Origin: Gammaproteobacteria bacterium
Lineage (GTDB): Bacteria > Pseudomonadota > Gammaproteobacteria > CAIRSR01
DNA: 45,362 nt
NCBI GenBank assembly: GCA_963575655.1
Contig: CAUYTY010000144.1
Span: 1-45,362, forward strand
Direction of reading: 5' to 3'
Under the pieces are notes generated by a model. The model worked only from the letters and a program-made list of their open reading frames with translations, had not been told where the DNA came from and ran no database searches. Made by a program: the position numbers and the translations under genes. Shown piece by piece: positions 5,779-30,181 of this stretch. The number at the start of each line of letters is the position of its first letter. Positions within the stretch are counted from its first letter, which is position 1.

Positions 5779-7184
5779 CAATACCTTCGCCATTAAACTA
5801 CGGGCTCTGGCAAGTTAACGCGGCCAAGAGAGGCCACCTGCCTGACGATGGCGTCAATGGAAATTGGCTCAGGGATTTGCGGAAGCCATTTTAAAGTTTC
5901 GCGGACATACTTTCCCGCGCGGAACCAAGCCTTGAGGTCAATGATGCTCATGCCGACGAACTTGGTTTGTCGCCTCAAGAGATGCGAAACATTGACCATG
6001 AAGAAGGCAAGGTTGGCAGCATTGATGGCAGGGCGTTCGTTGACGGACATGAAGTCGTCGAGCCCCCAGAACTGCTTGGCGTCACGAAAGTTGAACTCGA
6101 TTTGGAAGCGAAGCGAGTAATAGTCCATCAGCTCATTCCAGGCGAGGGCGAGATCGGAACTGAAGAGTAGAACATGGGCAGACTTGAGGGTTTTTAGGTT
6201 CGTTTTGATGATGATGACGACGTTGAGCAGTTCCGTGAATTTCTTGTGGCGCAAGCTCATCTGGTAGATGTCGGTACGGAGGTTGTCTTCGACCACGGAG
6301 AATTTACGGAAATGCTCGGGAAGCTGGCCGTAGTCGAGGCGAGCGCCATACTTTTTGCGTGGTCCCCGGCCGGATTGAAGACCCTCGTAGGGGAAATAAA
6401 GCGCGGAATCGTGGCGTAGCTTGGAAATGAGATGGAGACCACAGTGTCGGACCAATTGGACCCCGGCGTTGTGGCCGAGAGCCCCGTCATAGACGAAGTA
6501 GAGCAGCGGGAGGTCGGCGCCGACCAAAACCTGCAGGGCTTGGATCGCGTCCCGTAAGAATCGCTGGAATGCCGTCAGTTCTACTTCAGTGCGGACTTGG
6601 TTGCGGCTCCCCTTGGGGCGGCCGCGTCCCCGTTTGACGGTTGGCCGGGATGGAGCCGTCGGAGGTTTTTCCGGAGGGATTACCGGTAGCGTCATCACGG
6701 GATAGGACACACGGTCGTTGACCGAGGTCAGCGAGAGGCACAAATGGCATAGGCTGGGAAGCGGCTTACCGTAAATGGAGGAGAAGAACCGGCCTATCCC
6801 ATGGGTATGGCGGCCCGCCTTGGGTGTCACCACTTCGTCTGCGGTGAGCAATATCACGCAGGGAACTCGCATCAGGTGGCGACGGATGAGGTGCCACTGT
6901 ACTTTTTCCCACGGTATCAGGGTGTTGAAGAAACGCTGGACCGTGCGATAACTGCCGCCGGCTTCCGTCCAGCGTGAAATACCCAGCATGGTGACCCGCC
7001 CCGTCATGGTCAGAAGCGCGGCCACTACACGGGCTAGACGGCGCAAAGTGGTAGCGTTGAGGCAAGGAGCCAAACACGCCAGAAAAAATAAAAGGTCCAT
7101 CGGCTCCCCTGCGAGCAGCTGGATTAGTGGCCGCTAAGTATACCCTCTAACTTCCTGTGGTCATCAAATTTGGCGAACGTATTG
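5779..7184 (-). mobile_element. Intact IS4-family insertion sequence, 1406 bp
   Basis: The ends are imperfect inverted repeats, CAATACCTTCGCC at the left and the complement of CAATACGTTCGCC at the right. The element is flanked by the 6-bp direct repeat TAAAAA (5773-5778 and 7185-7190), which is A-rich and so less decisive alone. The assignment is backed by the second copy, which has the same ends and a different 6-bp duplication. It holds one transposase gene on the minus strand. Confidence 0.9.
5793..7100 (-). CDS. IS4-family transposase (intact copy)
   Basis: A 435-residue DDE transposase. The first catalytic Asp is probably in LLTADEVVTPKAG, the second in YFVYDGALGHNAG, and the catalytic Glu lies in YYSLRFQIEFNFRDAK. 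That last stretch fits the IS4-family signature Y-x2-R-x3-E-x6-K exactly. A Lys/Arg-rich linker with KRGRGRPKGSRN (an AT-hook-like motif) lies near residue 160. The start is preceded by AGGGGAGCC. The gene fills most of its element. The second copy at 23630 is identical up to its truncation, so the duplication is recent. Confidence 0.95.
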   Translation of the reverse strand: MDLLFFLACLAPCLNATTLRRLARVVAALLTMTGRVTMLGISRWTEAGGSYRTVQRFFNTLIPWEKVQWHLIRRHLMRVPCVILLTADEVVTPKAGRHTHGIGRFFSSIYGKPLPSLCHLCLSLTSVNDRVSYPVMTLPVIPPEKPPTAPSRPTVKRGRGRPKGSRNQVRTEVELTAFQRFLRDAIQALQVLVGADLPLLYFVYDGALGHNAGVQLVRHCGLHLISKLRHDSALYFPYEGLQSGRGPRKKYGARLDYGQLPEHFRKFSVVEDNLRTDIYQMSLRHKKFTELLNVVIIIKTNLKTLKSAHVLLFSSDLALAWNELMDYYSLRFQIEFNFRDAKQFWGLDDFMSVNERPAINAANLAFFMVNVSHLLRRQTKFVGMSIIDLKAWFRAGKYVRETLKWLPQIPEPISIDAIVRQVASLGRVNLPEPVV

Positions 7185-7398: not shown

Positions 7399-7825
7399 GT
7401 ATCTACGAGGGCTGGACCAATTCCGAAAAGTCATTTCTTAGGAATGCGCATGATATGTTGTGATGGCTTCCTACTCTTCGTTAATCCTTCAAACTGGAGT
7501 CTTCGCAACATTCGGGAGTTCAGAACATCGAGATTTAGGGTAACATTGCGTCCTGGCCCAATCAGTACCAACTACTGCACAGGTTGGGTTATTGGCGGCA
7601 AACGGACGAGAGCCCCTCAGGTGACGACCTAGACGACTACCGTACCTGGCTCGCCCAAGACCGTCACACCTCCGACCCAACAACAAATGCCACGAACAAC
7701 ACCATCTCGATAGCAAGACGTAGCAAACATATCGAGTTCTCCCTCTGGCTTCCCTTTCGCAACACGCACCAAAATTGCGATTGCCACGCTAGTGAATGAG
7801 CAATACCTTTTCGAGGAGATTACCT
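7399..7825. other. Gene-free spacer before the PilZ chemoreceptor gene
   Basis: About 430 bp without a convincing coding region: the open frames here are short, lack ribosome sites and have no recognisable motifs. The last 15 bases hold the GAGGAG ribosome site (7813-7818) of the next gene. A promoter for it should be here, but I could not pick one confidently. Confidence 0.5.
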
Positions 7826-7828
7826 GTG

Positions 7829-9919
7829 ATGGTAAAATTAATGTCTATCCGGAAATTTATGGCCATCTTTACCATCTCGATTACCTTATTGCTGGGAATC
7901 GGGAATCTAATCGTTTGGGAAAGAAATAGCGTCGCCTTACAAGCTGCGGAAGCGGAGAAACAACGCTTATCAGATGCTGTCCTTGCATTTAAGGATGTCC
8001 GCTATCACGTCGTACAGATTCAACAATTTCTCACTGATGCCTCGGTGGTTGGTCAAGAGGATTACCATGAATCACAACCACAGCGTGATGTGGCCAAGAC
8101 GATACTCACCGACCTCGCTAAATTAGTACCCAACCTCCAAAATATGCTCCATGATCTGGATAATTCCTTAGATACGCTGTATGCCACCGGAGTCCGTATG
8201 GTCCAGGCTTATGTTCACCAAGGACGCGAAGCGGGTAATGCCATCATGAAGGCCCCGGAAGATGGTTTTGACAGTGCCACCGAAACTATTGATCAATACC
8301 TCGAACGCCTGGCCAGGACCATCGATACGCAATTGGGTGTCGCTGCCGAAAGGAAACAGAAAACGATCGCAAAGATATTCGCTAGCAATGCCCTCCTCGC
8401 GATTCTCACCCTGGCTATCATCATCATTTCTAATCTGTGGTTGGCCCGATTACTTATGCGAGTACTCGGCGGTGAACCTTCCTACGCGGCAACTATCGCC
8501 CACCAAGTCGCTGCCGGAGATCTAACTGTTGAAATTCAAGATCGTAGCAAATTCTCCGATAGTTTGCTCGGTTCTATGAACGAGATGGTCTTCCAACTCC
8601 GTCAGAACCTCCGTGAAATCGAGCAGGTGAGTAAACAAATTGGTCAATCGTCCTACCAGATTACCAAGATTGCCCAGATCATCGACGAATCCAATCAGGC
8701 CGAGCAACAGCATTCAGGAGAGGTAACCAACGCCACAGCGGAATTACGTACCGCATCAGATGCTGTTATGCGTCTTGCGGAGACCGCCCGCGACCGTGCC
8801 AATCAAAATCGGGCGAGTACCGAGCGAGCAATATCTGCGGTGCAGGATAATATCGAGCAAATGCGGCGGATTATGGAGGAGGTACACCACGCTTCCAGCA
8901 AAATGGAGGAATTGGATCGCGCTAGTACGCGCATTCAAGTTATTACCACCACGATTACCGCCATCACCGAGCAAACCAACCTGTTGGCCCTAAATGCCGC
9001 CATTGAGGCCGCCCGTGCAGGGGAACATGGTCGAGGTTTTTCCGTAGTTGCCGAGGAGGTTCGTCATCTTGCGCAACGAGCAGCAGATTCTACGGCCGAG
9101 ATTAACAGCATTACCGGTGAATTTAGCAAGCTCGTTAAAGAAAATGCGAGCGCCATGCACGACATTATTCAGCGCACCCAAGAAGGCATGTCACAATCTC
9201 ATGATACCGGCGCGGTCATAAAAGACATTGCCCAAGATATCGTCGAAAATGCGACGACTTCACAACAAATCTCCACCCTCAGCACCGAACAAATGGAAAG
9301 GCTGTCGCATCTCCAAATCCGCCTGGAAGACCTATTCCGTACCCTAGCCGAGAGTAGCGACCGGGTTCATATCACCAATACCGTTACCCGTGACCTCTAT
9401 CAGGTGACGGGAAAATTATCGGAAATGCTCCAAAACTTCCACTTTGACCGCCAGTGGACGAGCCAGCCTATCGTTAATGACCATCGCAAAACACCGCGAG
9501 CCCCCAATAACTTATTGGTCCATATCGATGTTGGCGACCGACTCTGTGAATCCATTACCGCCGATTTCAGTCTTACCGGAATGCGTCTACGTACCACAGA
9601 TATGACGCTCGAAAAGGGTAAGATCTTTACCATGCAACTGATGATCCCTCACGAGAACATCAAGGAATATACCAACCAAACCCCTCTGACCTTGAAAGGG
9701 AAGATCGTTTGGCATCGCATCGAACAGGGCCAACAATATTATGGGGTGGAGTTTGTCGACACCACCAGAGAACAAAAGATACAACTTCACCGCTGCTTTG
9801 AATTCTTCAACCGTACAGCAGAATATACCGAAACCGAAGTGCCCTCTTCTCGTTCCGGGCATAGCAACGATACGGACAGGAATCGTGGATATTCAGACTA
9901 TTCGCCGACGTTTGCCTAA
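7829..9919 (+). CDS. Methyl-accepting chemotaxis protein with C-terminal PilZ domain
   Basis: About 696 residues. A first membrane helix near residues 10-30, a periplasmic helical sensor of roughly 160 residues, a second membrane helix ([20 protein letters not shown]) near 190, HAMP ([19 protein letters not shown]), then the cytoplasmic signalling hairpin with the tip sequence [20 protein letters not shown]. After it, near residues 550-670, comes a PilZ domain with RKTPR (RxxxR) and DFSLTG (DxSxxG), the c-di-GMP-binding residues of that family. This suggests a receptor whose output is tuned by c-di-GMP. The GAGGAG site is 10 nt from this ATG and 7 nt from GTG 7826, which is an equally good start. 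It is not adjacent to the main chemosensory cluster. Confidence 0.93.
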
Positions 9920-11672: not shown

Positions 11673-11840
11673 ACCCAAGTTGCTACCTATAGCGCGCTTT
11701 TCTCCCCTCTTCCTCCGGGAAAGGGGCCGGGGATGAGGGCGTGATGCTGACGAATCAACAAATTCGCGCCCTCACCCCAACCCCTCTCCCGGGGGGAGAG
11801 GAGCTTTTTCGTTTCTCACCGCATAGGTAGCAACTTGGGT
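11673..11840 (+). repeat. MITE-like repeat R2, copy 1 (168 bp) with 6-bp target duplication
   Basis: Terminal inverted repeats ACCCAAGTTGCTACCTAT and its complement, flanked on both sides by TAAGTA (11667-11672 and 11841-11846). The interior has no ORF. It contains GC-rich arms and, near its right end, a hairpin followed by GCTTTTTCG that resembles an intrinsic terminator. It sits just upstream of rsfS. Confidence 0.9.
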
Positions 11841-12963: not shown

Positions 12964-15567
12964 TCAATAACGTTCGAAACCAACGTCGTCGTTATCACCG
13001 TGGGGGTGGTGGCCATCTAATTTTAGGGTGAAGCCTTTATTGCCGGATTGTCCGGTCATAGCGGGTGCTGTACCAGTGGCTTTAGCGGTCGCGGTACTTG
13101 CGGTTTTCTGATAACGTCGCGCACCGGTAATGGGTGGACGCTGTGGTGCGGTGATATGACCAGCATGACCAATATGACTGGCATGATTTGATGATTCTGT
13201 CCTGAGATGTTGCCGAGTATTACCCAGAGAGAAAAACGCAATGGTAGATTGTAATTGCTGGGCCTGGGCAGAGAGTTCTTCAGAGGTGGACGACATCTCT
13301 TCGGCGGCACTGGCGTTTTGTTGGGTCACCTGGTCGAGTTGCTGAATCGCTACGTTGATTTGTCCAGCCCCGGAATTCTGCTCGCGAGAGGCGACACTAA
13401 TCTCGGCAACAAGACTGGCAGTACGTTGAATATCCGGTACGAGTTTAGCCAACATCTGCCCAGCCACCTCCGAGGCGCCGACAGTTTGGGTTGAGAGCAG
13501 ACTAATCTCAGCCGCTGCGGTTTGGCTTCGTTCTGCGAGTTTGCGCACCTCGCTCGCGACTACCGCAAAACCTTTTCCATGTTCGCCAGCACGAGCGGCC
13601 TCGATTGCGGCATTCAAGGCAAGCAGATCGGTTTGGCGGGCAATCTCCTGAACGATGGTGATCTTCTGGGCGATAGTCTTCATGGCCGCTACCGCGTTAT
13701 TTACCGCCTCGCCACTGGTCGCAGCATCAGTAGCAGATTGACGGGCTATTTTCTCGGTTTCGGTGGCGTTGTCGGCGTTCTGACGAATATTGGCGGCCAT
13801 TTCCTCCATGGAAGATGACGCCTCCTCGGATGATGCAGCCTGTTCAGAAACTCCTTGCGAGAGTGTTTCGGCACTGGCACTCAATTGTGCGCTACCGGTA
13901 GCAACATTGGTGGCGGCGGTCGAGACATCAGTGACCACTTCGCGTAAACGTTCGACCATATTTTCGAGGGCAATACCTAATATGTCTTGCTCGGAGAGCC
14001 GTTTGGGTTGAACGCTAAGATCTCCCCGTGAGATCTGTTCGGCAATTCCCGCAGTGGTGCGTAGATTGGTGATCATATTTTCCAGGGCAATACCCAACAT
14101 GTCTTGATCGGACAACCGCTTGGCCTGAACGCTCAAATTCCCCCGAGAGATCTGTTCGGCAATCCCGGCCGTGGTACGCAGATTGGCGATCATACCCTCT
14201 AGGGCAATCCCCAACACATCCTTTTCCGATAACCGTTTAGCCTGAACCGTAAGATTGCCCCGTGAAATCTCACTGGCGATAGTAGCTGTGGCACGGAGAT
14301 TGGCGATCATTCCCTCCATGGCGATCCCTAGTAGGTCTTTTTCCGAGAGGCGCCTGGCTTGAACTGTCAGATCACCCTTGGCGATCTCCTCAGCAACCCC
14401 AGCAGTAGCACGCAGATTGGTACACATGCGATTCATTGCCGCGATTAGATCACCGATCTCTTCGCGGCCTCGGTACTCAATAGTCTGATTTAGGTCCCCT
14501 TCTGCTACTGCCAAGGCAAGCCCTCCCGCCTGCCGTAGCCCGCGCTGGATGGTGAATGAAATCCAAAACGCCACGGTGATGCTAATGAGGATTAGAGCCA
14601 CCGCAATCGTGATCAGCTCTTCACGAGAATTATCAAAGATGACATCGGCCAGTTTGGTGGCTACGGTCATTTCGTCCTTATTTTGTGCAACCACATCGCT
14701 AATCGTCGTGTTTAATTTTTCCATCAAATCGTTATTCTTCCCGAGAGTCAGGGCGGTGGACATAGCTTGGCCATTCTCAAGTACCGTGTCTCGAACCTTG
14801 TGGTGGATAGCAAGATAGGACTCCCAGGCGGTGATTAACCGTTGGATATCCGCTTGTTGGTTAGCAGTCGCACGCTCCCGTAGCGAAGTGATTAGCGTCT
14901 GAATATTTTGGAGGCGCGTATCAACCCCCTTCAAGAATTCCCGCATCTTGGGGATATCGTCAAACAGGATGAGCGCAGTTTCGTCGCGCTGAATATGCAT
15001 CATCTCCGTTGTGAGACGCCCGCGCGACCAAGTATTTGCCGCGGGGGTATTCCCGGTGGTGGCAGTAGTGGTGGCGTTCTCGATATCAGTCGCCGCCCTC
15101 ATGGCTGTTTCAAATGCCTCATTCCCCTTCCCGAGGCTGAGAGCAATGGCCGTGGCCGTTGAACTCAACATTGCTAGTCGAAGGGTCTCATCCTGGGACT
15201 TACTGAGTTCGTCAAGAGTCAAAATAAAGCTCTCGATCTTTTTCTTTTCTTCCGCGCTGGCCAGCGCTCGCCATTCTTCAACGGCGGCCTTGACATGATT
15301 TTGCTGGTTCTTGATATGGACAACAATCTGTTTGAGCTTTCCTGGGTCAGTCTCAATAATGGCATCTTTCTCGAGACCATCCAAATTCGCTAGTTCATTG
15401 TCCAAGATGAGTACTTGCCTAGTTTTTGCAACCGGTCCACCGACCACACCATCCTGGGTGTCGTTGAGGAAACGGAGATTGCTAATCCCTAGATAAGCTG
15501 AAATTGAGCTGAGGATCAGAATAATTGTAAAGGCGGTTACCAACCGGGCCTTAATGGTGAAACGCAT
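12964..15567 (-). CDS. Methyl-accepting chemotaxis protein with tandem HAMP repeats
   Basis: 867 residues. It starts [13 protein letters not shown], with a first membrane helix to about residue 32, a helical-bundle sensor of about 280 residues, a second membrane helix near 315-335, and a canonical HAMP ([20 protein letters not shown]). Four 39-residue HAMP-like units follow, each with the pattern [25 protein letters not shown]. The signalling hairpin has the tip [23 protein letters not shown]. The C-terminal linker ends in DDVGFERY. I chose ATG 15567 by match with the paralogue at 19026 and a GGAG site upstream; the frame is open 38 codons further. It is the last gene of the cluster on this strand. 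Confidence 0.93.
13939..14406 (-). repeat. Four tandem 117-bp in-frame repeats coding HAMP-like units
   Basis: Units at 14406-14290, 14289-14173, 14172-14056 and 14055-13939 each encode 39 residues beginning T-A-(G/T)-(I/V)-A. The last two are the most alike ([11 protein letters not shown] in both). The paralogous receptor at 16771-19026 has only one such unit at the same place, so three units were gained here or lost there. Confidence 0.9.
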
Positions 15568-15715
15568 AGTGGTGAACTCCAAAGCTGTAATCATTCGCCC
15601 CTTACCATTGGGAGGGGAGTGAACGGTTACCCAAAGTTTATGAACATGGATGGGGCAGAAGGTAATAACTTTCACATCCATCGAGAACGATGCGTTTCCT
15701 TAAGTTAATGCGTCT

Positions 15716-16249
15716 TCAGGACAACGATCGAAATCCAGTCACTAATGGTTGTCCAACCATCAAATCATCCATGGTAAATACTTTATTAAGGTTGAGCACG
15801 ATCACGAATCGTCCGTGGCGTCGCCCGATACCACGAATGATCTCAGAACGCCAGCGAGTACCAATCTCCGGTGGTGGGGCAACATCGCTGGAATCGAGGG
15901 CGGTCACCTCAAAAACGCGGTCGGTGAGTGCGCCAATTACGAGTGATCGTGACCCGACCACTACCTCAAGCACCATAATTCGGGTGCTGTCGGTTGGGTC
16001 CGTTAGTGGCATTCCGAATTTGACCCGCAGGTCAATTACCGGCACCGCTTGGCCACGCACGTCGATCATACCGCGTACAAATGGCGGCATATTCGGTACC
16101 TTGCTAAACGGGCAGAGATCGAGTACCTCACGCACCTGAACGACATTAAGCGCGAAGGTCTCATCACCAACGCCACAGGTCAGATATTGAATCGACTCAT
16201 CTAATGCCCGGTGCTCGGTGCGTCGTTGCGCTGCGGTTGAATGAGACAT
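15716..16249 (-). CDS. cheW: CheW coupling protein (second of two)
   Basis: A 177-residue CheW-domain protein. Recognisable stretches are [52 protein letters not shown] and GALTDRVFEV, covering both five-stranded subdomains. CheW links CheA to receptors at the cytoplasmic membrane. GAGGAGG lies about 7 nt before the ATG. It sits between the other cheW and the poly-HAMP receptor gene, so it probably serves that receptor. It is clearly diverged from its neighbour paralogue. Confidence 0.95.
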   Translation of the reverse strand: MSHSTAAQRRTEHRALDESIQYLTCGVGDETFALNVVQVREVLDLCPFSKVPNMPPFVRGMIDVRGQAVPVIDLRVKFGMPLTDPTDSTRIMVLEVVVGSRSLVIGALTDRVFEVTALDSSDVAPPPEIGTRWRSEIIRGIGRRHGRFVIVLNLNKVFTMDDLMVGQPLVTGFRSLS

Positions 16250-16292: not shown

Positions 16293-16793
16293 TTAAGTGG
16301 CGTTTGATACTACAACGTCCTCAGAGGCAAATACCTGATCGATATCGGCAACGATGATAAATTCGTCGCCGCGTTTACCAATCGCCCGGATGAATTCGGG
16401 TCGCCAGCGCATACCAATTCTCGGCACATCCTCTATCGAAGTACCTGGTAATTCTGTCACCTCGTAGACTTTATCGGCGAGTGCCCCCACCAAAACGGTC
16501 TCGCCCTCGATTCGTATCTCGATAACAACGATGCGCGTATCTGGTGTTGGAAGAATGGGGGGCATACCGAACTTGACGCGCAGGTCAGTAACCGAGACGA
16601 CCTTTCCACGCACATTGATCAGTCCCTTGATAAAGGGTCGGCTATTGGGGATGCGAGTAATCGGTACTCGATCGAGCACTTCATGGACTCGTTCCGTTTC
16701 AATAGCAAAGATCTCCCCGGCCAATCCCAGAGTTAGGACTTGAATCGCATTGCGATTGTTTTCTCCGGCATTAGTAACGTTCGAAGCTGACAT
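16293..16793 (-). CDS. cheW: CheW coupling protein (first of two)
   Basis: A 166-residue CheW-domain protein with [55 protein letters not shown] and [12 protein letters not shown] chose ATG 16793 ([10 protein letters not shown]) because AGGGG is 9 nt upstream. This start lies inside the end of the preceding chemoreceptor gene, overlapping it by 23 bp in another frame, which indicates translational coupling. The frame is open further upstream to 16886, but that part is the shadow of the receptor gene. Confidence 0.93.
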
Positions 16794-19026
16794 CGTCGCC
16801 ATCCCCTTGCAGGTGTTGATGATCGTCAAGCTTAAAGGTGTAGCCCCGGCCATTCTGATGCGTCTTAGGGGGGGCATGTTTGCCAATTGATTCTTGCTTG
16901 GTTGAGTCCGCTGGGCGTTGTTTTACCGATACGACCGACAATTTCGCCGATGCGGACCTCGCGGTGGTACGGTGAGGGCGAGGAGCGGGGGATGATTCTG
17001 AGATATTGCGGTTATAGGTAACCTTCGCCAGGGTAAAGAAGGCAATCGTCTCCTGAAGTTGCTGGGATTGCGCAGACAATTCCTCAGAGGTGGACGACAT
17101 TTCTTCGGCTGCGCTGGCGTTCTGTTGCGTTACCTGGTCGAGTTGTTGGATCGCGACGTTAATCTGTTCGGCACCGGAATTTTGTTCACGAGAGGCAGAA
17201 CTAATTTCAGTGACCAGGGCAGCGGTACGCTGGATATCAGGTACTAATTTTGCCAACATTTGCCCCGCTTCTTCCGAGACGACTACGGTTTGGGCCGAGA
17301 GCGTACTAATTTCCGTGGCGGCGGTTTGACTGCGTTCGGCGAGTTTACGAACCTCACTCGCTACGACCGCAAATCCTTTGCCGTGTTCACCCGCGCGCGC
17401 GGCTTCAATTGCAGCGTTGAGGGCGAGTAGATCGGTCTGACGTGCGATCTCTTGGATGATGGTAATTTTCTGGGCGATAGTCTTCATCGCTGCAACTGTT
17501 TTACCAACGGCCTCGCCGCTCTTGGCCGCATCGGTTGCGGATTGACGAGCTATTTTTTCGGTTTCGGTGGCGTTGTTGGCATTCTGACGAATATTGGCAC
17601 TCATCTCCTCCATGGAAGACGAGGCCTCCTCACTCGACGCTGCTTGTTCGGAGACCCCTTGAGATAGCGTTTCGGCACTGGCGCTCAATTGTTCGCTGCC
17701 GGTGGCGACATTGGTGGCGGCGGTAGATACGTCGGTCACCACCTCGCGCAGGCGCTCGACCATAGTCTCTAGGGCAATACCGAGAGCATCCTTATCAGAG
17801 AGCCGCTTGGTCTGAACGGTTAGATTGCCTTTTGCGATCTCCTCGGCAATCCCTGCGGTGGCACGAAGATTAGCGCACATACAATTCATTGCGTTGATCA
17901 AATCGCCAATCTCTTCACGGCCTCGGTATTCGATAGTTTTGGTCAGATCCCCTTCGGCCACGGCTTGGGCAAGCTCTCCTGCCTGTTGCAAGCCACGGCG
18001 GATAATAAATAGGATCCACAATGCCGCCATAATGCCGAGGAGGAGCGAAAAACCGGTAGCAATCATTAGTTCGCCACGGGCGTCATCATAGATATTATCT
18101 GCTTGTTTGGTTGCAGCGACCATTGCGTCCTTATTTTGTGTCACAATATCCGCGACGATGGTATTTAACCGCTCAAGCAATTCATGGTTCTTGCCCAGCG
18201 CCAGAGAAATAGCAAAGGCCTTACTGTTATCGAGTACGACCTCACGGATCTTATGATGAATGGTTAGATAGCTGTCCCAGGCCGTCATTAACCGCTGCAC
18301 CTCCGCTAATTGTCCAGAGGCGACTCGTTCACGTAGGGAGGTAAACAAAGTTTGGATATTTCTAAGGCGTTCATCGACCCCCTTCAGAAACTCGTGCATC
18401 TTTGGGATTTCGTCGAGCAGGATGAGGTAGGTTTCGTCGTGTTGGACACGCGCCATTTCGGTGGTAATGCGTCCAAGGGTAGCGATAACGCGGGTATCGT
18501 TATTAGTGGTAGCGGGGGGGGCGGTAGTAATGGATCGATCAAGGTCGGCAGCCACTTTCATAGCCACTTCGAATGCCTCACTGGCCTTTCCGGTACTAAG
18601 TGCAGTGACGGTTAAGACTGAATTTAACATAGCCAAGCGTAGCGTTTCCTCCTGAGACTTGGTTAGTTCATTCAGGATGGAGACAAACTTTTCGATCTTT
18701 TTCTTTTCATCAGGATTTGCCAACGCTTGCCATTCCTCAATAATTTCCTTTATTCTGGACTGTTGATTCTTGATGTCGAGAACGATCTGTTTGATTTTTC
18801 CGTTATCCGTTTCAATAATAGCATTTTTCTCAAGACCTTCCAGGTCAGATAGTATGGCGTCGAGGGTTAGGATGAGCCGGGTTTTAACAACAGGTCCCTC
18901 CACCACGCTATCTTGGGTTTCGTTGAGAAGTCGGAGGTTGCTAATTCCGAAAAAAGCCGAAATGCTCGTCAGCACTAAGATTGATGCAAAGGCAGCAACC
19001 AATCGAGCTTTGATGGTGAAACGCAT
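16771..19026 (-). CDS. Methyl-accepting chemotaxis protein (paralogue with one extra HAMP unit)
   Basis: 751 residues, homologous along its length to the receptor at 12964-15567. Two membrane helices (about 10-32 and 315-335) frame a helical-bundle sensor. Then come a canonical HAMP ([20 protein letters not shown]), one HAMP-like unit ([20 protein letters not shown]) and the signalling hairpin with [23 protein letters not shown]. The tail is a long polar linker ending DDVSFERY, nearly the same final residues as the paralogue. AGGAG lies 8 nt before the ATG. It overlaps cheW downstream. The upstream gap to cheA is filled by repeats R1 and R2. Confidence 0.95.
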
Positions 19027-19067: not shown

Positions 19068-19406
19068 GCCCGTAGGATGCGGTGAGGAACGAATCGCATC
19101 ATTCGCGTTATTTTCCACCTTGATAACTAACCCAAGTTGCTACCTTAGCACGCCTTTCTCCCCTCTCCCTTCGGGAGAGGGGCCGGGAGCGAGGGCGTGA
19201 TGCTAACGAATCAATAAATTCTCACCCTCACCCCAACCCCTTTCCCGAAGGGAGGGGGCTTTTTCGTTTCTCATCGCATGGGTGGCAACTTGGGTTAACT
19301 ATCTCAGGGTTACACGCCCAATCCAGGCAATACACACCGCGTCGAACATAGGCGTAGAGGTTGGACGACGCGAATGATGCGGTTTGTTCCTCACCGCATC
19401 CTACGT
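19068..19406. repeat. Dispersed repeat R1, copy C (split by an R2 element)
   Basis: The left arm (19069-19110, GTAGGATGCGGTGAGGAACG) and right arm (19369-19405) are reverse complements and match copies A and B. Between them the R1 centre reads GATAACTA, then the R2 insertion, then TAACTATCTCAGGG. Removing R2 and one TAACTA restores the text seen uninterrupted in copy B. It occupies nearly all of the 383-bp gap between cheA and the receptor gene. Confidence 0.9.
19130..19295 (+). repeat. MITE-like repeat R2, copy 2 (166 bp), nested in R1
   Basis: The ends are ACCCAAGTTGCTACC and GGTGGCAACTTGGGT, flanked by TAACTA at 19124-19129 and 19296-19301. Near the right end a GC-rich hairpin is followed by GCTTTTTCG. 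The terminator-like feature points along the plus strand, opposite to the chemotaxis genes, so it should not stop cheA-to-receptor transcription. Confidence 0.92.
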
Positions 19407-19409
19407 GGG

Positions 19410-21542
19410 CTATTGCCGAACGGGTGTTTGGGGAACCGCTCCCATTCTAAGCGTAGTTTCACGTTCGCGGGCGAATTGGATCAGGTGAGGAATGTCGAGA
19501 ATTAGGGAAACCCCGCCATCGCCAAGAATAGTCGCGCCGGAGAAGCCTTCCAAGTCACGATGCAGACGGGAGAGCGACTTGATCACCGTCTGATGCTGGC
19601 CAATTACCTGATCAACCACCAACCCGATGCGCGATTCGCCGAATGCGACAATAACCACCTTTTGGATATCGGGGACAGTTCCCGGCATGTTGAATAACTG
19701 CCGAAGACGAATGAAAGCGACAATCTCGCCGCGAATATTGAGAAAGCTTCGACCATCAGAGCGATCATTCTCTTGGCGGGTAAGTTCCACACACTCCTCA
19801 ACGGCAGTGAGCGGAATGACATAACGCTCGTCACCCATTCGTACCAATAGCCCATCGATAATAGCCAAGGTCAGCGGTAGTTTGAGCGTAATTGCAGTAC
19901 CTCGACCAATAGTGCTGCTAATATCGATACTGCCACGCAGGCTGTCGATAGTGCGTTTAACAACATCCATACCCACGCCACGACCGGACATATTGGTTAC
20001 CGTGGTGGCGGTCGATAGACCAGGTTGAAAGATACAGGCAAATAACTCTGCCTCGCTGACCTCTTGGCCGGATTGAAGCAAGCCGCGCTCCTCTGCTTTG
20101 GCACGAATGGCGGTGCGATCCAGCCCGCGCCCATCGTCCTCAATGGTGATCAATACCTGAGCGCCCGAATGAATCGCGGACAGATGGAGTTTTCCCGATA
20201 CGGGTTTATCGTGGGCCTGTCGTTGCGCTTTATCCTCAATGCCATGATCAATGGAATTGCGGATCAGGTGAACCAAGGGATCGTTTAGATTCTCGATGAC
20301 GGTCTTGTCGAGTTCGGTTTCTTCGCCAGAAGTGGTCAATTCGACCGATTTACCGAGTTCGTGCGACAGATCATGGACTACTCGACGAAATCGACCAAAG
20401 AGAGTGCCAATCGGTAACATGCGTACGCTCATGGTCGTATCGCGTAATCCGGCGGCCAGGCGTTCGATATCTTCAGCAATGGATTTAAGGAGGGGGCTAT
20501 TCTCGGTTGCGGCAACCTGTTGGAGTCGAGCCTGGGCAATGACTAATTCTCCAACCTGATCCATTAGACTATCGAGACGCTCGGCGGGGACGCGAATAGT
20601 GCTCCCCGAGGTTGCACTTTCCCGCGCTTTGGCGGCCTGCGCGAGGTGATTTTGTTCACTGAGTGCGGCGGCCAGGTGATCTTTCGAGACTTTACCCGAC
20701 TGCACCAACATCGTTCCGAGTCGTTGCTGTCGTTGGAGTTCTTCTTCAACGTCGGCGGGGGCAATATCCCCGCGCTTGACAAGAATTTCACCAAGCCGTG
20801 GCGGTGATGCGTCCTTTTCGAACGGGAGTTCGTCGATGACCAATTCCGAACGGTCGGCAACAAAGATGAAAATATCATCAAGCGTCGCACGATTCGCCCG
20901 GGTGGTTAGCATTAGATCCCAACCCAGGTAACACTTCGTGGATTCCAAATTGGGAAGCAAAGGCACCCGATCGGTCATTGGCACTACGGTACAGGGGCCA
21001 AGTGCGCGTAATTCGTCCAAGAGCAGGAGCGGATTGCCTCCAAATTCCAACATATCACGGCTGGGGTACCAACGGATATGAAAGATACGTTCCAGATTGG
21101 GAAGCGGGGTAGGGCTAGCGGGGGATGGAGTAGGCGTAAGAGATTTCTGTGAGGAGGAATGACCGGTACCAGCGGTGAGATCGGCAAACGCGGCCAGAAG
21201 TGCCCCACCGCGTACCCGGTCGGCCTGCTCGGGGTGCTCCAATAATATTCGTAGGTGGTCGAGTGCCGCGAGGGTGAGTGATACCAGATCGGCGCTTGCC
21301 GCAAGGGTACCATCGCGTACCTTTTGAAAGGCGCTTTCGATATGGTGGGTAAATGAGGCAAGCGCATCCCACCCAAACATTGCGCCAGAACCTTTGATCG
21401 TATGCAGGGCACGAAACGCCTGATCGACCAATTCGAGATTATCGGGGGAGTTTTCCAGGTCGAGCAGGCTGGTCTCAAGCTGGATGAGAAGGTCCGCTGC
21501 CTCCTGCTTGAAGATTTCCGACGGATTCGCCGTGTGTGCCAT
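19410..21542 (-). CDS. cheA: Chemotaxis histidine kinase CheA
   Basis: 710 residues. P1 (HPt) with phospho-acceptor His47 in RALHTIKGSGAMFG; a Pro/Ser-rich linker; a middle region at about 150-310 unlike the usual P2; the P3 dimerisation helix (LDSLMDQVGELVIAQARLQQ); the P4 ATPase with HLIRNSIDHGIE (N box), DDGRGLD (G1) and SGRGVGMDVVK (G2); and a P5 CheW-like domain at the end. It phosphorylates CheY in response to receptors. The middle region holds two copies of an LGEILVKRG/LGTMLVQSG-type motif resembling the N domains of type II secretion and pilus ATPases. The start has AAGG 6 nt upstream. It follows cheY by about 134 bp. Confidence 0.95.
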   Translation of the reverse strand: MAHTANPSEIFKQEAADLLIQLETSLLDLENSPDNLELVDQAFRALHTIKGSGAMFGWDALASFTHHIESAFQKVRDGTLAASADLVSLTLAALDHLRILLEHPEQADRVRGGALLAAFADLTAGTGHSSSQKSLTPTPSPASPTPLPNLERIFHIRWYPSRDMLEFGGNPLLLLDELRALGPCTVVPMTDRVPLLPNLESTKCYLGWDLMLTTRANRATLDDIFIFVADRSELVIDELPFEKDASPPRLGEILVKRGDIAPADVEEELQRQQRLGTMLVQSGKVSKDHLAAALSEQNHLAQAAKARESATSGSTIRVPAERLDSLMDQVGELVIAQARLQQVAATENSPLLKSIAEDIERLAAGLRDTTMSVRMLPIGTLFGRFRRVVHDLSHELGKSVELTTSGEETELDKTVIENLNDPLVHLIRNSIDHGIEDKAQRQAHDKPVSGKLHLSAIHSGAQVLITIEDDGRGLDRTAIRAKAEERGLLQSGQEVSEAELFACIFQPGLSTATTVTNMSGRGVGMDVVKRTIDSLRGSIDISSTIGRGTAITLKLPLTLAIIDGLLVRMGDERYVIPLTAVEECVELTRQENDRSDGRSFLNIRGEIVAFIRLRQLFNMPGTVPDIQKVVIVAFGESRIGLVVDQVIGQHQTVIKSLSRLHRDLEGFSGATILGDGGVSLILDIPHLIQFARERETTLRMGAVPQTPVRQ

Positions 21543-23629: not shown

Positions 23630-24801
23630 ATGGACCTTTTATTTTTTCTGGCGTGTTTGGCTCCTTGCCTCAACGCTACCACTTTGCGCCGTCTAGCCCG
23701 TGTAGTGGCCGCGCTTCTGACCATGACGGGGCGGGTCACCATGCTGGGTATTTCACGCTGGACGGAAGCCGGCGGCAGTTATCGCACGGTCCAGCGTTTC
23801 TTCAACACCCTGATACCGTGGGAAAAAGTACAGTGGCACCTCATCCGTCGCCACCTGATGCGAGTTCCCTGCGTGATATTGCTCACCGCAGACGAAGTGG
23901 TGACACCCAAGGCGGGCCGCCATACCCATGGGATAGGCCGGTTCTTCTCCTCCATTTACGGTAAGCCGCTTCCCAGCCTATGCCATTTGTGCCTCTCGCT
24001 GACCTCGGTCAACGACCGTGTGTCCTATCCCGTGATGACGCTACCGGTAATCCCTCCGGAAAAACCTCCGACGGCTCCATCCCGGCCAACCGTCAAACGG
24101 GGACGCGGCCGCCCCAAGGGGAGCCGCAACCAAGTCCGCACTGAAGTAGAACTGACGGCATTCCAGCGATTCTTACGGGACGCGATCCAAGCCCTGCAGG
24201 TTTTGGTCGGCGCCGACCTCCCGCTGCTCTACTTCGTCTATGACGGGGCTCTCGGCCACAACGCCGGGGTCCAATTGGTCCGACACTGTGGTCTCCATCT
24301 CATTTCCAAGCTACGCCACGATTCCGCGCTTTATTTCCCCTACGAGGGTCTTCAATCCGGCCGGGGACCACGCAAAAAGTATGGCGCTCGCCTCGACTAC
24401 GGCCAGCTTCCCGAGCATTTCCGTAAATTCTCCGTGGTCGAAGACAACCTCCGTACCGACATCTACCAGATGAGCTTGCGCCACAAGAAATTCACGGAAC
24501 TGCTCAACGTCGTCATCATCATCAAAACGAACCTAAAAACCCTCAAGTCTGCCCATGTTCTACTCTTCAGTTCCGATCTCGCCCTCGCCTGGAATGAGCT
24601 GATGGACTATTACTCGCTTCGCTTCCAAATCGAGTTCAACTTTCGTGACGCCAAGCAGTTCTGGGGGCTCGACGACTTCATGTCCGTCAACGAACGCCCT
24701 GCCATCAATGCTGCCAACCTTGCCTTCTTCATGGTCAATGTTTCGCATCTCTTGAGGCGACAAACCAAGTTCGTCGGCATGAGCATCATTGACCTCAAGG
24801 C
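23630..24801 (+). pseudogene. IS4-family transposase, 3' end lost
   Basis: Identical to the 435-residue transposase at 5793-7100 up to residue 391 (MSIIDLKA), including the DDE region and the Y-x2-R-x3-E-x6-K signature. It then runs into an IS1-type end and stops at 24880 after 25 foreign residues. It lacks the last 44 residues. Because the catalytic core remains it could in theory retain some activity, but I expect it to be dead. Confidence 0.93.
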
Positions 24802-25005
24802 GGTGGTGTTCCAGACCTGGATATGGCCAGTAATGTTCCATAATTTAGATATTTTTCAGACTAAGACGCCAAATTCATAGCGATTTATGAAGAGACCAAT
24901 CACAATATCATGCATTTTCTCAAGTTTGGAGAAGCAAATGGTTTTCCGGGCAAGCCGTTTGATAGGCACTGGTCTATTTTGATTCTTGCTATAATCGATT
25001 GAAAA
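24802..25005 (-). pseudogene. IS1-family remnant: right end and transposase C terminus
   Basis: The sequence switches from IS4-type at 24802 with GGTGGTGTTCCAGACC, which has the form of an IS1-family terminus (GGTGrTG...). On the minus strand a fragment ending at the stop 24856-24858 reads IKRLARKTICFSKLEKMHDI followed by VIGLFINRYEFG, the typical C terminus of IS1-family InsB transposases. It covers only about 50 codons (to about 25005); upstream of that the frame is closed. Confidence 0.8.
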
Positions 25006-25224: not shown

Positions 25225-26368
25225 CTAACCTGCGCGTTGGTTAGGGGACAAGCAAGTAAAAATAATCTATTATTAGTCCAACCAAAAAATAAGACATGAA
25301 ATTGCTAAAATTATGAAAAATTCTGATGGACGTTCTCTCGATCACTCTACCCTTGAGTATATAAGGCTTCAAGCAGTAAAAGCTGTACGTAAAGGAATGT
25401 CTCCTAGGGAGGTGGGCGAGATTTTCGGTATGCACCGATCGAAGGTGTACGAATGGGTGAAGAAGGCAAAAGAGATGGGTCTAGCTACGTTAAATGCGAA
25501 ACCTGTCCCTGGAAGAAAATCCTTCATCAATGAACAGCAAGAAGGAATACTCGTATTCTGGCTGTGCGCATTTACCCCATTGGATTTTGAATTCTCGACA
25601 GTCTTATGGACAACTGAAATGATAAAGACATTAATAGAGAGGAAATTTTCTATTTACATGAGTCGTTCCGCGGTGGGCCGTTTTTTGCGCCGCATTAATT
25701 TAACTCCACAACGGCCAGTATATCGTGCGATAGAGAGGGACCAATTTTCAGTAGATAATTGGATTAACAAAGAGTTTCCTAGAATCAAAGAGTTGGCAAG
25801 TAATGAGGGTGCTATAATCTATTTTCTTGATGAGGCTGGGGCGCGCACCGATTATCACGCGGGTACAACTTGGGGGCTAGAAGGTTTAACTCCCATAATT
25901 CCCTCCACTGGTGGACGTTATCGCATAAATATGATCGCTGCGATAACTTCTGAAGGAAAGATGCATTTCCAAATAGGTCCCTCATCGCTCAATGGTGGTG
26001 CGTTTGTTGAATATCTAAAAATTTTGGCTCAAGAGAATTCATGCCCCATCTATATTGTAACAGACGGGTATTCTGCCCATCATGCAAAAGTAGTTAAGGA
26101 ATATCTGGAGACGACAAATGGAAAGGTTAAAATATTCTTTCTTCCCACCTATTCTCCACACCTTAATCCTGTCGAGCTAGTATGGAGCAATATTAAGACA
26201 CAAGGAATTGCGCGTCACCTTATTCGTAATGTGGAGGAGTTAAAAAATAAAGCTACTCAACTTTTAGAGGATTTAAAAAAATCGCCAGAGAAAGTCAGAG
26301 AACTTTTTAAAGAAGAATCCGTCCAATATGCTATTTAGCTGGAGTCCCCTAACCAACGCGCAGGTTAG
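25225..26368 (+). mobile_element. Intact IS630-family insertion sequence, copy 1 (1144 bp)
   Basis: Perfect 25-bp terminal inverted repeats beginning CTAACCTGCGCGTTGGTTAG, flanked by TA on both sides (25223-25224 and 26369-26370). TA duplication is typical of IS630/Tc1/mariner elements. Each terminal repeat is itself partly palindromic (CTAACC/GGTTAG). It carries one transposase gene. It is AT-richer than the host genes around it. A second full copy of exactly the same length lies at 41750-42893. Confidence 0.97.
25313..26338 (+). CDS. IS630-family transposase, copy 1
   Basis: 341 residues. The N terminus has a helix-turn-helix of Tc1/IS630 type (MSPREVGEIFGMHRSKVYEWVKK) followed by a GRKSF linker. 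The catalytic DDE residues lie in IYFLDEAGARTD, IYIVTDGYSAHHAK and PTYSPHLNPVELVWSNIK. The gene starts 88 bp inside the left terminal repeat and stops 30 bp before the right end. The protein is identical to the copy at 41780-42805, so transposition was recent. Confidence 0.97.
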   Translation: MKNSDGRSLDHSTLEYIRLQAVKAVRKGMSPREVGEIFGMHRSKVYEWVKKAKEMGLATLNAKPVPGRKSFINEQQEGILVFWLCAFTPLDFEFSTVLWTTEMIKTLIERKFSIYMSRSAVGRFLRRINLTPQRPVYRAIERDQFSVDNWINKEFPRIKELASNEGAIIYFLDEAGARTDYHAGTTWGLEGLTPIIPSTGGRYRINMIAAITSEGKMHFQIGPSSLNGGAFVEYLKILAQENSCPIYIVTDGYSAHHAKVVKEYLETTNGKVKIFFLPTYSPHLNPVELVWSNIKTQGIARHLIRNVEELKNKATQLLEDLKKSPEKVRELFKEESVQYAI

Positions 26369-30094: not shown

Positions 30095-30181
30095 ACCCAA
30101 GTTGCCACCTTGCGCACTTTTCCCCTCTCCCTCCGGGAGAGGGGCTTTTTCGTTTCTCTCCGCATAGGTGGCAACCTGAGT
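30095..30181 (+). repeat. MITE-like repeat R2, copy 3 (87 bp), with a terminator-like hairpin
   Basis: Left end ACCCAAGTTGCCACC, right end GGTGGCAACCTGAGT. The flanks (TAGTTA and TGAGCT) do not match, so the duplication has decayed or the right end is rearranged. Inside, CCCCTCTC and GAGAGGGG pair and are followed by CTTTTTCG on the plus strand. Lying after the plus-strand kinase gene, this is well placed to end its transcript. Confidence 0.8.

Follow-up and report, generated by a model that had tools for sequence, protein, structure and literature searches.

Variable numbers of 39-residue HAMP units in a chemoreceptor family: a four-unit receptor, its one-unit sister, and relay length as a probable consequence

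Consecutive HAMP domains within one chain are known from Aer2 of Pseudomonas aeruginosa (PDB 3LNR, 4I3M, and 4I44), in which adjacent HAMPs can adopt opposite conformers with opposite outputs (PMC3570549). Divergent HAMPs of such poly-HAMP chains are distinguished by loss of the DExG motif and retention of a single glycine at the connector–AS2 junction (PMC3570549). Tandem HAMPs are also present in FrzCD of Myxococcus xanthus, where they influence array formation (PMC12077210), and a report on Azospirillum brasilense describes 36H receptors with three HAMPs as well as two 38H receptors that carry an additional HAMP (PMC6759762). Serial divergent HAMPs occur in the fungal group III kinases Nik1 and Bos1 (PMC3418262), which are likened to the present case by description.

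The window discussed here is a 45,362-nucleotide stretch of gammaproteobacterial DNA. It carries a minus-strand chemotaxis group composed of cheA, receptor B, two cheW genes, and receptor A (Table 1). Both receptors match the MCP signaling domain (PF00015, at 9.8e-28 and 8.4e-31), and CheA and two CheW proteins adjoin them. In receptor A, a 4HB sensor is followed by the canonical HAMP, four 39-residue units, and the MCP signaling domain; receptor B has the same domain order with one 39-residue unit. The start of A is ambiguous, and the downstream option (beginning MRFTIK) matches the start of B. The true start of the second CheW is probably downstream of the listed TTG, since the latter overlaps B. 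Both receptor tails end in FERY (12964-12981 and 16771-16788), with EFERY, DFERF, and, in Rhizobium, F[RK]ESA in relatives; these tails are possibly docking peptides for adaptation enzymes. Elsewhere in the window, the gene at 7796-9919 encodes an MCP signaling domain with a C-terminal PilZ domain, and its product is a chemoreceptor that likely binds c-di-GMP. Palindromic elements of 23 bp, rich in G+C (CCCCTCTCCCGAAGGGAGAGGGG and variant forms; seven matches against zero expected), are located at 11704-11803, 19160-19259, and 30122-30144. They look like dispersed repeats of the REP/MITE type, and one pair is situated between cheA and receptor B.

Table 1. Positions of the chemotaxis genes, HAMP units, and related loci discussed in the text
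Feature	Position	Strand	Remarks
Receptor A (MCP)	12964..15681	-	905 aa; P0001; alternative start 15567; tail GFERY
Canonical membrane-proximal HAMP of A	14410..14562	-	Pfam HAMP, residues 374-424
Unit 1 of A	14308..14424	-	P0001 residues 420-458
Unit 2 of A	14191..14307	-	P0001 residues 459-497
Unit 3 of A	14074..14190	-	P0001 residues 498-536; 83% nucleotide identity to unit 4
Unit 4 of A	13957..14073	-	P0001 residues 537-575; AS2 continues into the signaling helix
MCP signaling domain of A	13273..13749	-	Pfam core, residues 645-803
CheW	15716..16249	-	Pfam CheW, 1.3e-32
Second CheW	16293..16886	-	Listed TTG start overlaps B
Receptor B (MCP)	16771..19026	-	751 aa; P0002; tail SFERY
Canonical HAMP of B	17863..18003	-	Residues 342-388
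Single unit of B	17761..17877	-	P0002 residues 384-422
CheA	19410..21542	-	Hpt, dimerization, HATPase, and CheW domains
GAF-HisKA kinase loci with 39-residue units	L105:1-2940; L094:1-2640; L096:793-3252; L092:673-3252		
Rhizobium chimeras	L026, L035, L032, L036		One-unit genes, start near 8100

The repeat structure was recovered independently of the original prediction, which had described a canonical HAMP followed by four exact 39-residue units in A and one in B. The program TRF returned the 117-bp period unprompted (score 346), and a repeat search gave spacings of 117, 117, and 117 in A and a fifth copy in B at 17757-17893. The layout thus stands. The array occupies 13957-14424, and the interval originally given (13939-14406) is the same 468 bp shifted by 18 bp, an offset that is immaterial because the register of a repeat is arbitrary. 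Nucleotide identity among the four units of A is 64-83%, units 3 and 4 being the only close pair and the others ranging from 64 to 72%, and third-position identity is 0.36-0.62.

That the units are HAMP-like, as had been proposed, is borne out by profile, Pfam, and structure-model matches to Af1503 of Archaeoglobus fulgidus and to Aer2. The Pfam HAMP model (PF00672) matches 17 of 17 two-unit segments of the family at E<=1 (best 2.9e-7); the first two-unit segment of the window scores 18.5 bits, below the gathering score of 25, and a Pfam HAMP search with the whole protein made no separate call for individual units. When a two-unit profile was compared with all PDB sequences, the Af1503 HAMP chains ranked first, albeit weakly (E 0.015), with the DxLG of the unit opposite the Af1503 DExG. 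A single-sequence PDB search with the array gave no match. Moreover, AlphaFold2 models of the region from TM2 to the signaling domain (pLDDT 84) and of an isolated three-unit segment (pLDDT 89, pTM 0.71) both show 24-residue helices and 15-residue connectors repeating with a period of 39. The units-only monomer model matches Aer2 (4i44) with Z 7.6 and Af1503 (2y20) with Z 7.6 over 53 residues at 1.6 Å. HAMP-containing chains were the top structure matches, the best non-HAMP chain reaching Z 3.0, and Foldseek by itself returned no E-value under 0.001.

Five positions, G17, S27, D30, G33, and M39, are invariant in 273 of 273 units. The modeled helices and connectors, with G17 and G33 flanking, give the AS1–connector–AS2 arrangement. 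The motif D30-x-L-G33, with invariant D and G and no conserved E at position 31, has the character of a divergent HAMP, and the uninterrupted 24-residue helix between connectors corresponds to Aer2-like concatenation. Collectively, sequence profiles and models indicate that the 39-residue units are compact HAMP domains. In the models, one 24-residue helix would close one HAMP as its AS2 and open the following HAMP as its AS1. Given that a HAMP spans approximately 53 residues and the period is 39, neighboring HAMPs would overlap by approximately 14 helix residues (two heptads). This sharing accounts for the short period, and the doubt whether 39 residues could be reconciled with any HAMP fold is thereby answered.

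Aer2 is the top fold match of the array, and its HAMP2 and HAMP3 share a helix, as the array units do. However, its connector glycines are spaced by 55 and 46 residues, compared with 39 in the array, its HAMPs are mutually unlike whereas the array units are of one class, and it is a soluble PAS receptor, unlike A and B. Af1503 resembles the array in fold and in sequence profile, but it has a single canonical HAMP, and the array unit is without the glutamate of DExG. The FrzCD HAMPs (31-83 and 84-136) are joined by a helical linker rather than overlapping, and FrzCD is a cytoplasmic DNA-bound receptor, unlike A and B (PMC12077210). The A. brasilense receptors are similar by description: they are alphaproteobacterial MCPs in which additional HAMPs follow the canonical one, and the report on them discusses array heights (PMC6759762).

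To survey the family, 78 loci were retrieved by similarity to the four-unit query from the genomes of 84,980 species, and a unit HMM was run on these loci and the window. It identified 149 receptors with 273 units, and adjacent units are spaced by exactly 39 residues in 124 of 124 cases. One unit is present in 64 receptors, two in 55, three in 26, four in one (receptor A), five in one, and six in two. The hosts are mostly Alphaproteobacteria; a Desulfobacterales contig carries receptors with three and five units. With counts from one to six this common, the A/B pair is not the unusual case it had been taken for. Rather, A and B are real, well-formed, but ordinary poly-HAMP receptors of a known kind. 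More distant 39-residue HAMP arrays, of up to four units, precede GAF-HisKA in kinases of the window's class (Table 1). An apparent tendency of cluster neighbors to avoid equal counts (three of 88 pairs equal, shuffled mean 30.5) was considered and dropped. After collapsing to sensor families it gave P = 0.04 at one threshold and 0.44 at another, and it is not claimed because a four-unit query favors high-count loci beside unselected neighbors.

Within the genus, family, and order of the window, strong unit matches are confined to the source genome, and the other matches across 369 genomes from its class show 29-48% identity. The best matches of the window receptors are Rhodospirillales receptors (L007), and the second CheW is 63% identical to the CheW adjoining these. 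The dTMP kinase gene next to A is native, with 63-66% identity to the host family, and the contig is therefore not evidently misbinned. On the best reading of these similarities, the receptor–cheW part appears to have been acquired horizontally from an alphaproteobacterium. DDE_5 transposase genes flank the chemotaxis group on both sides, and a DDE_3 transposase gene adjoins the second of them (5793-7100, 23630-24880, and 25313-26338 in all). This arrangement fits a horizontal gain, though native genes also lie between the transposases.

The sensor, signaling, and combined trees all group A with B as sisters, and the difference in unit number between the two therefore arose after their own duplication. 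They had been presented as close paralogues set apart chiefly by HAMP count, a description that does not hold. The sensors are 60-62% identical and the signaling domains 87%, while codon identity at identical residues (0.31-0.60) is little above the random expectation of 0.35, with synonymous sites near saturation. By this measure, A and B are old duplicates. Recent gene conversion between them was considered and rejected, as synonymous divergence shows no drop along the gene. The exact phase and the 83% identity of units 3 and 4 might suggest that the array in A is the recent product of unequal crossing-over between A and B. Against this, the remaining units are more diverged, the codons of identical residues agree at 0.34-0.55 in the units and about 0.47 elsewhere, and the unit of B does not nest with any single unit of A, which makes such an event very improbable. 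The possibility that the array is an assembly error deserves mention in that the source genome is a 261-contig draft. It can be practically dismissed, as the four copies have diverged while staying in one open frame, and one to six units are found in independent genomes.

How the count changes is better seen in the family. On receptor trees built with the units removed, at least 34-35 count changes are required. The count is nevertheless constant inside orthologue groups, for example two units throughout an 18-row Rhizobium group. All units belong to one sequence class, with no alternating types, and first, middle, and last units hold distinct sequences. The lone unit of one-unit receptors most resembles the last unit of longer arrays in 44 of 64 cases. 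In one locus (L063), identity between units 3 and 4 is 97%, the mark of a recent amplification. Moreover, some Rhizobium species have one-unit genes in which the sensor shares 74-83% identity with that of a three-unit receptor of other species (Table 1). At its start the unit of these genes resembles unit 1, and at its end it resembles unit 3 or the unit of the neighboring gene. The downstream flank is 84-96% identical to that of the neighboring one-unit gene and gave no match to the flank of the three-unit gene. These flanks speak against a deletion within one array and are most simply explained by homologous recombination in the HAMP region that fused two neighboring receptor genes. The chimeras provide direct evidence for recombination, and the order of genes in related species suggests that the change went from three units to one. 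Hence, the proposal that unequal recombination alters unit number is supported within the family, whereas for the window it is only plausible, the event being too old to trace.

What, then, would a change in unit number do? We consider it probable, though by no means settled, that the array acts as an in-phase poly-HAMP relay in which unit number alters length, and hence array height and compliance, rather than strictly the sign of the signal. Units would join in perfect helical phase, each with the same two interfaces, so that the relay would still work after the gain or loss of a unit. Physically, an added unit would above all lengthen the relay, and a longer relay would shift both how far the receptor stands above the CheA/CheW baseplate and how compliant the relay is. 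Taking a HAMP length of 35 Å (PMC6628036) and the modeled overlap, the rise would be approximately 1.4 nm (14 Å) per unit, or approximately 4 nm for A relative to B. The hairpin-tip motif lies 116 residues from the last unit in 144 of 144 motif-bearing receptors, whatever the count. Extra units are therefore not offset below the array, and total length must grow. Receptors of differing length are also reported to sort into separate arrays (PMC6628036), and the A. brasilense report states that a 14-residue insertion is enough for such segregation (PMC6759762). In A. fabrum the receptors are all 36H (PMC12654446), and the signaling class is thus uniform there.

The original prediction pointed instead to the reversal of signal sign by poly-HAMP chains in some sensors and proposed that unit number could change the output; in a strict form of this idea, with every HAMP inverting the signal, four units versus one would set opposite outputs. 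The Aer2 HAMP1 and HAMP2 conformers do yield opposite outputs in chimeras (PMC3570549), and both parities occur in sister receptors. A parity test lent the claim no support. Odd copy-number steps account for 21 of 30 and 21 of 31 independent contrasts, with an expected odd fraction of 0.74. The parity of the unit count is thus not conserved, odd steps being as frequent as chance predicts, which speaks against each unit simply reversing the sign, as does the uniform class of the units. This result is evidence rather than proof against strict inversion, because sign flips might be tolerated; per-unit inversion nevertheless seems to us distinctly improbable. A stronger competitor, though still an unlikely one, is that the count is near-neutral, any whole number of in-phase units transmitting equally while recombination makes the number drift. 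The exact period makes each recombinant likely functional, and the frequent changes and the near-identical copies in L063 fit such drift. The stable numbers within orthologue groups and the distinct first, middle, and last units speak against it. The relay-length reading has its own difficulties: hinges may absorb differences in height, neutral variation would equally allow odd and even changes, and, by analogy, the opposite conformers of Aer2 leave effects on sign possible.

It is an open question in the field whether a series of HAMPs inverts, damps, or simply lengthens the signal path. For effects of relay length, the present family offers a graded natural series, with a single unit repeated one to six times in exact phase. 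In Rhizobium, it adds orthologous sensors that a traceable fusion has placed on three-unit and one-unit outputs. Together these receptors are a direct natural test and a better one than the window pair. More speculatively, and with a somewhat smaller chance than neutral drift, unit number may be an evolvable ruler. Stepwise membrane-to-baseplate height would then sort otherwise equivalent receptors of a cluster into separate arrays, and recombination between neighbors would move sensors from one height to another.
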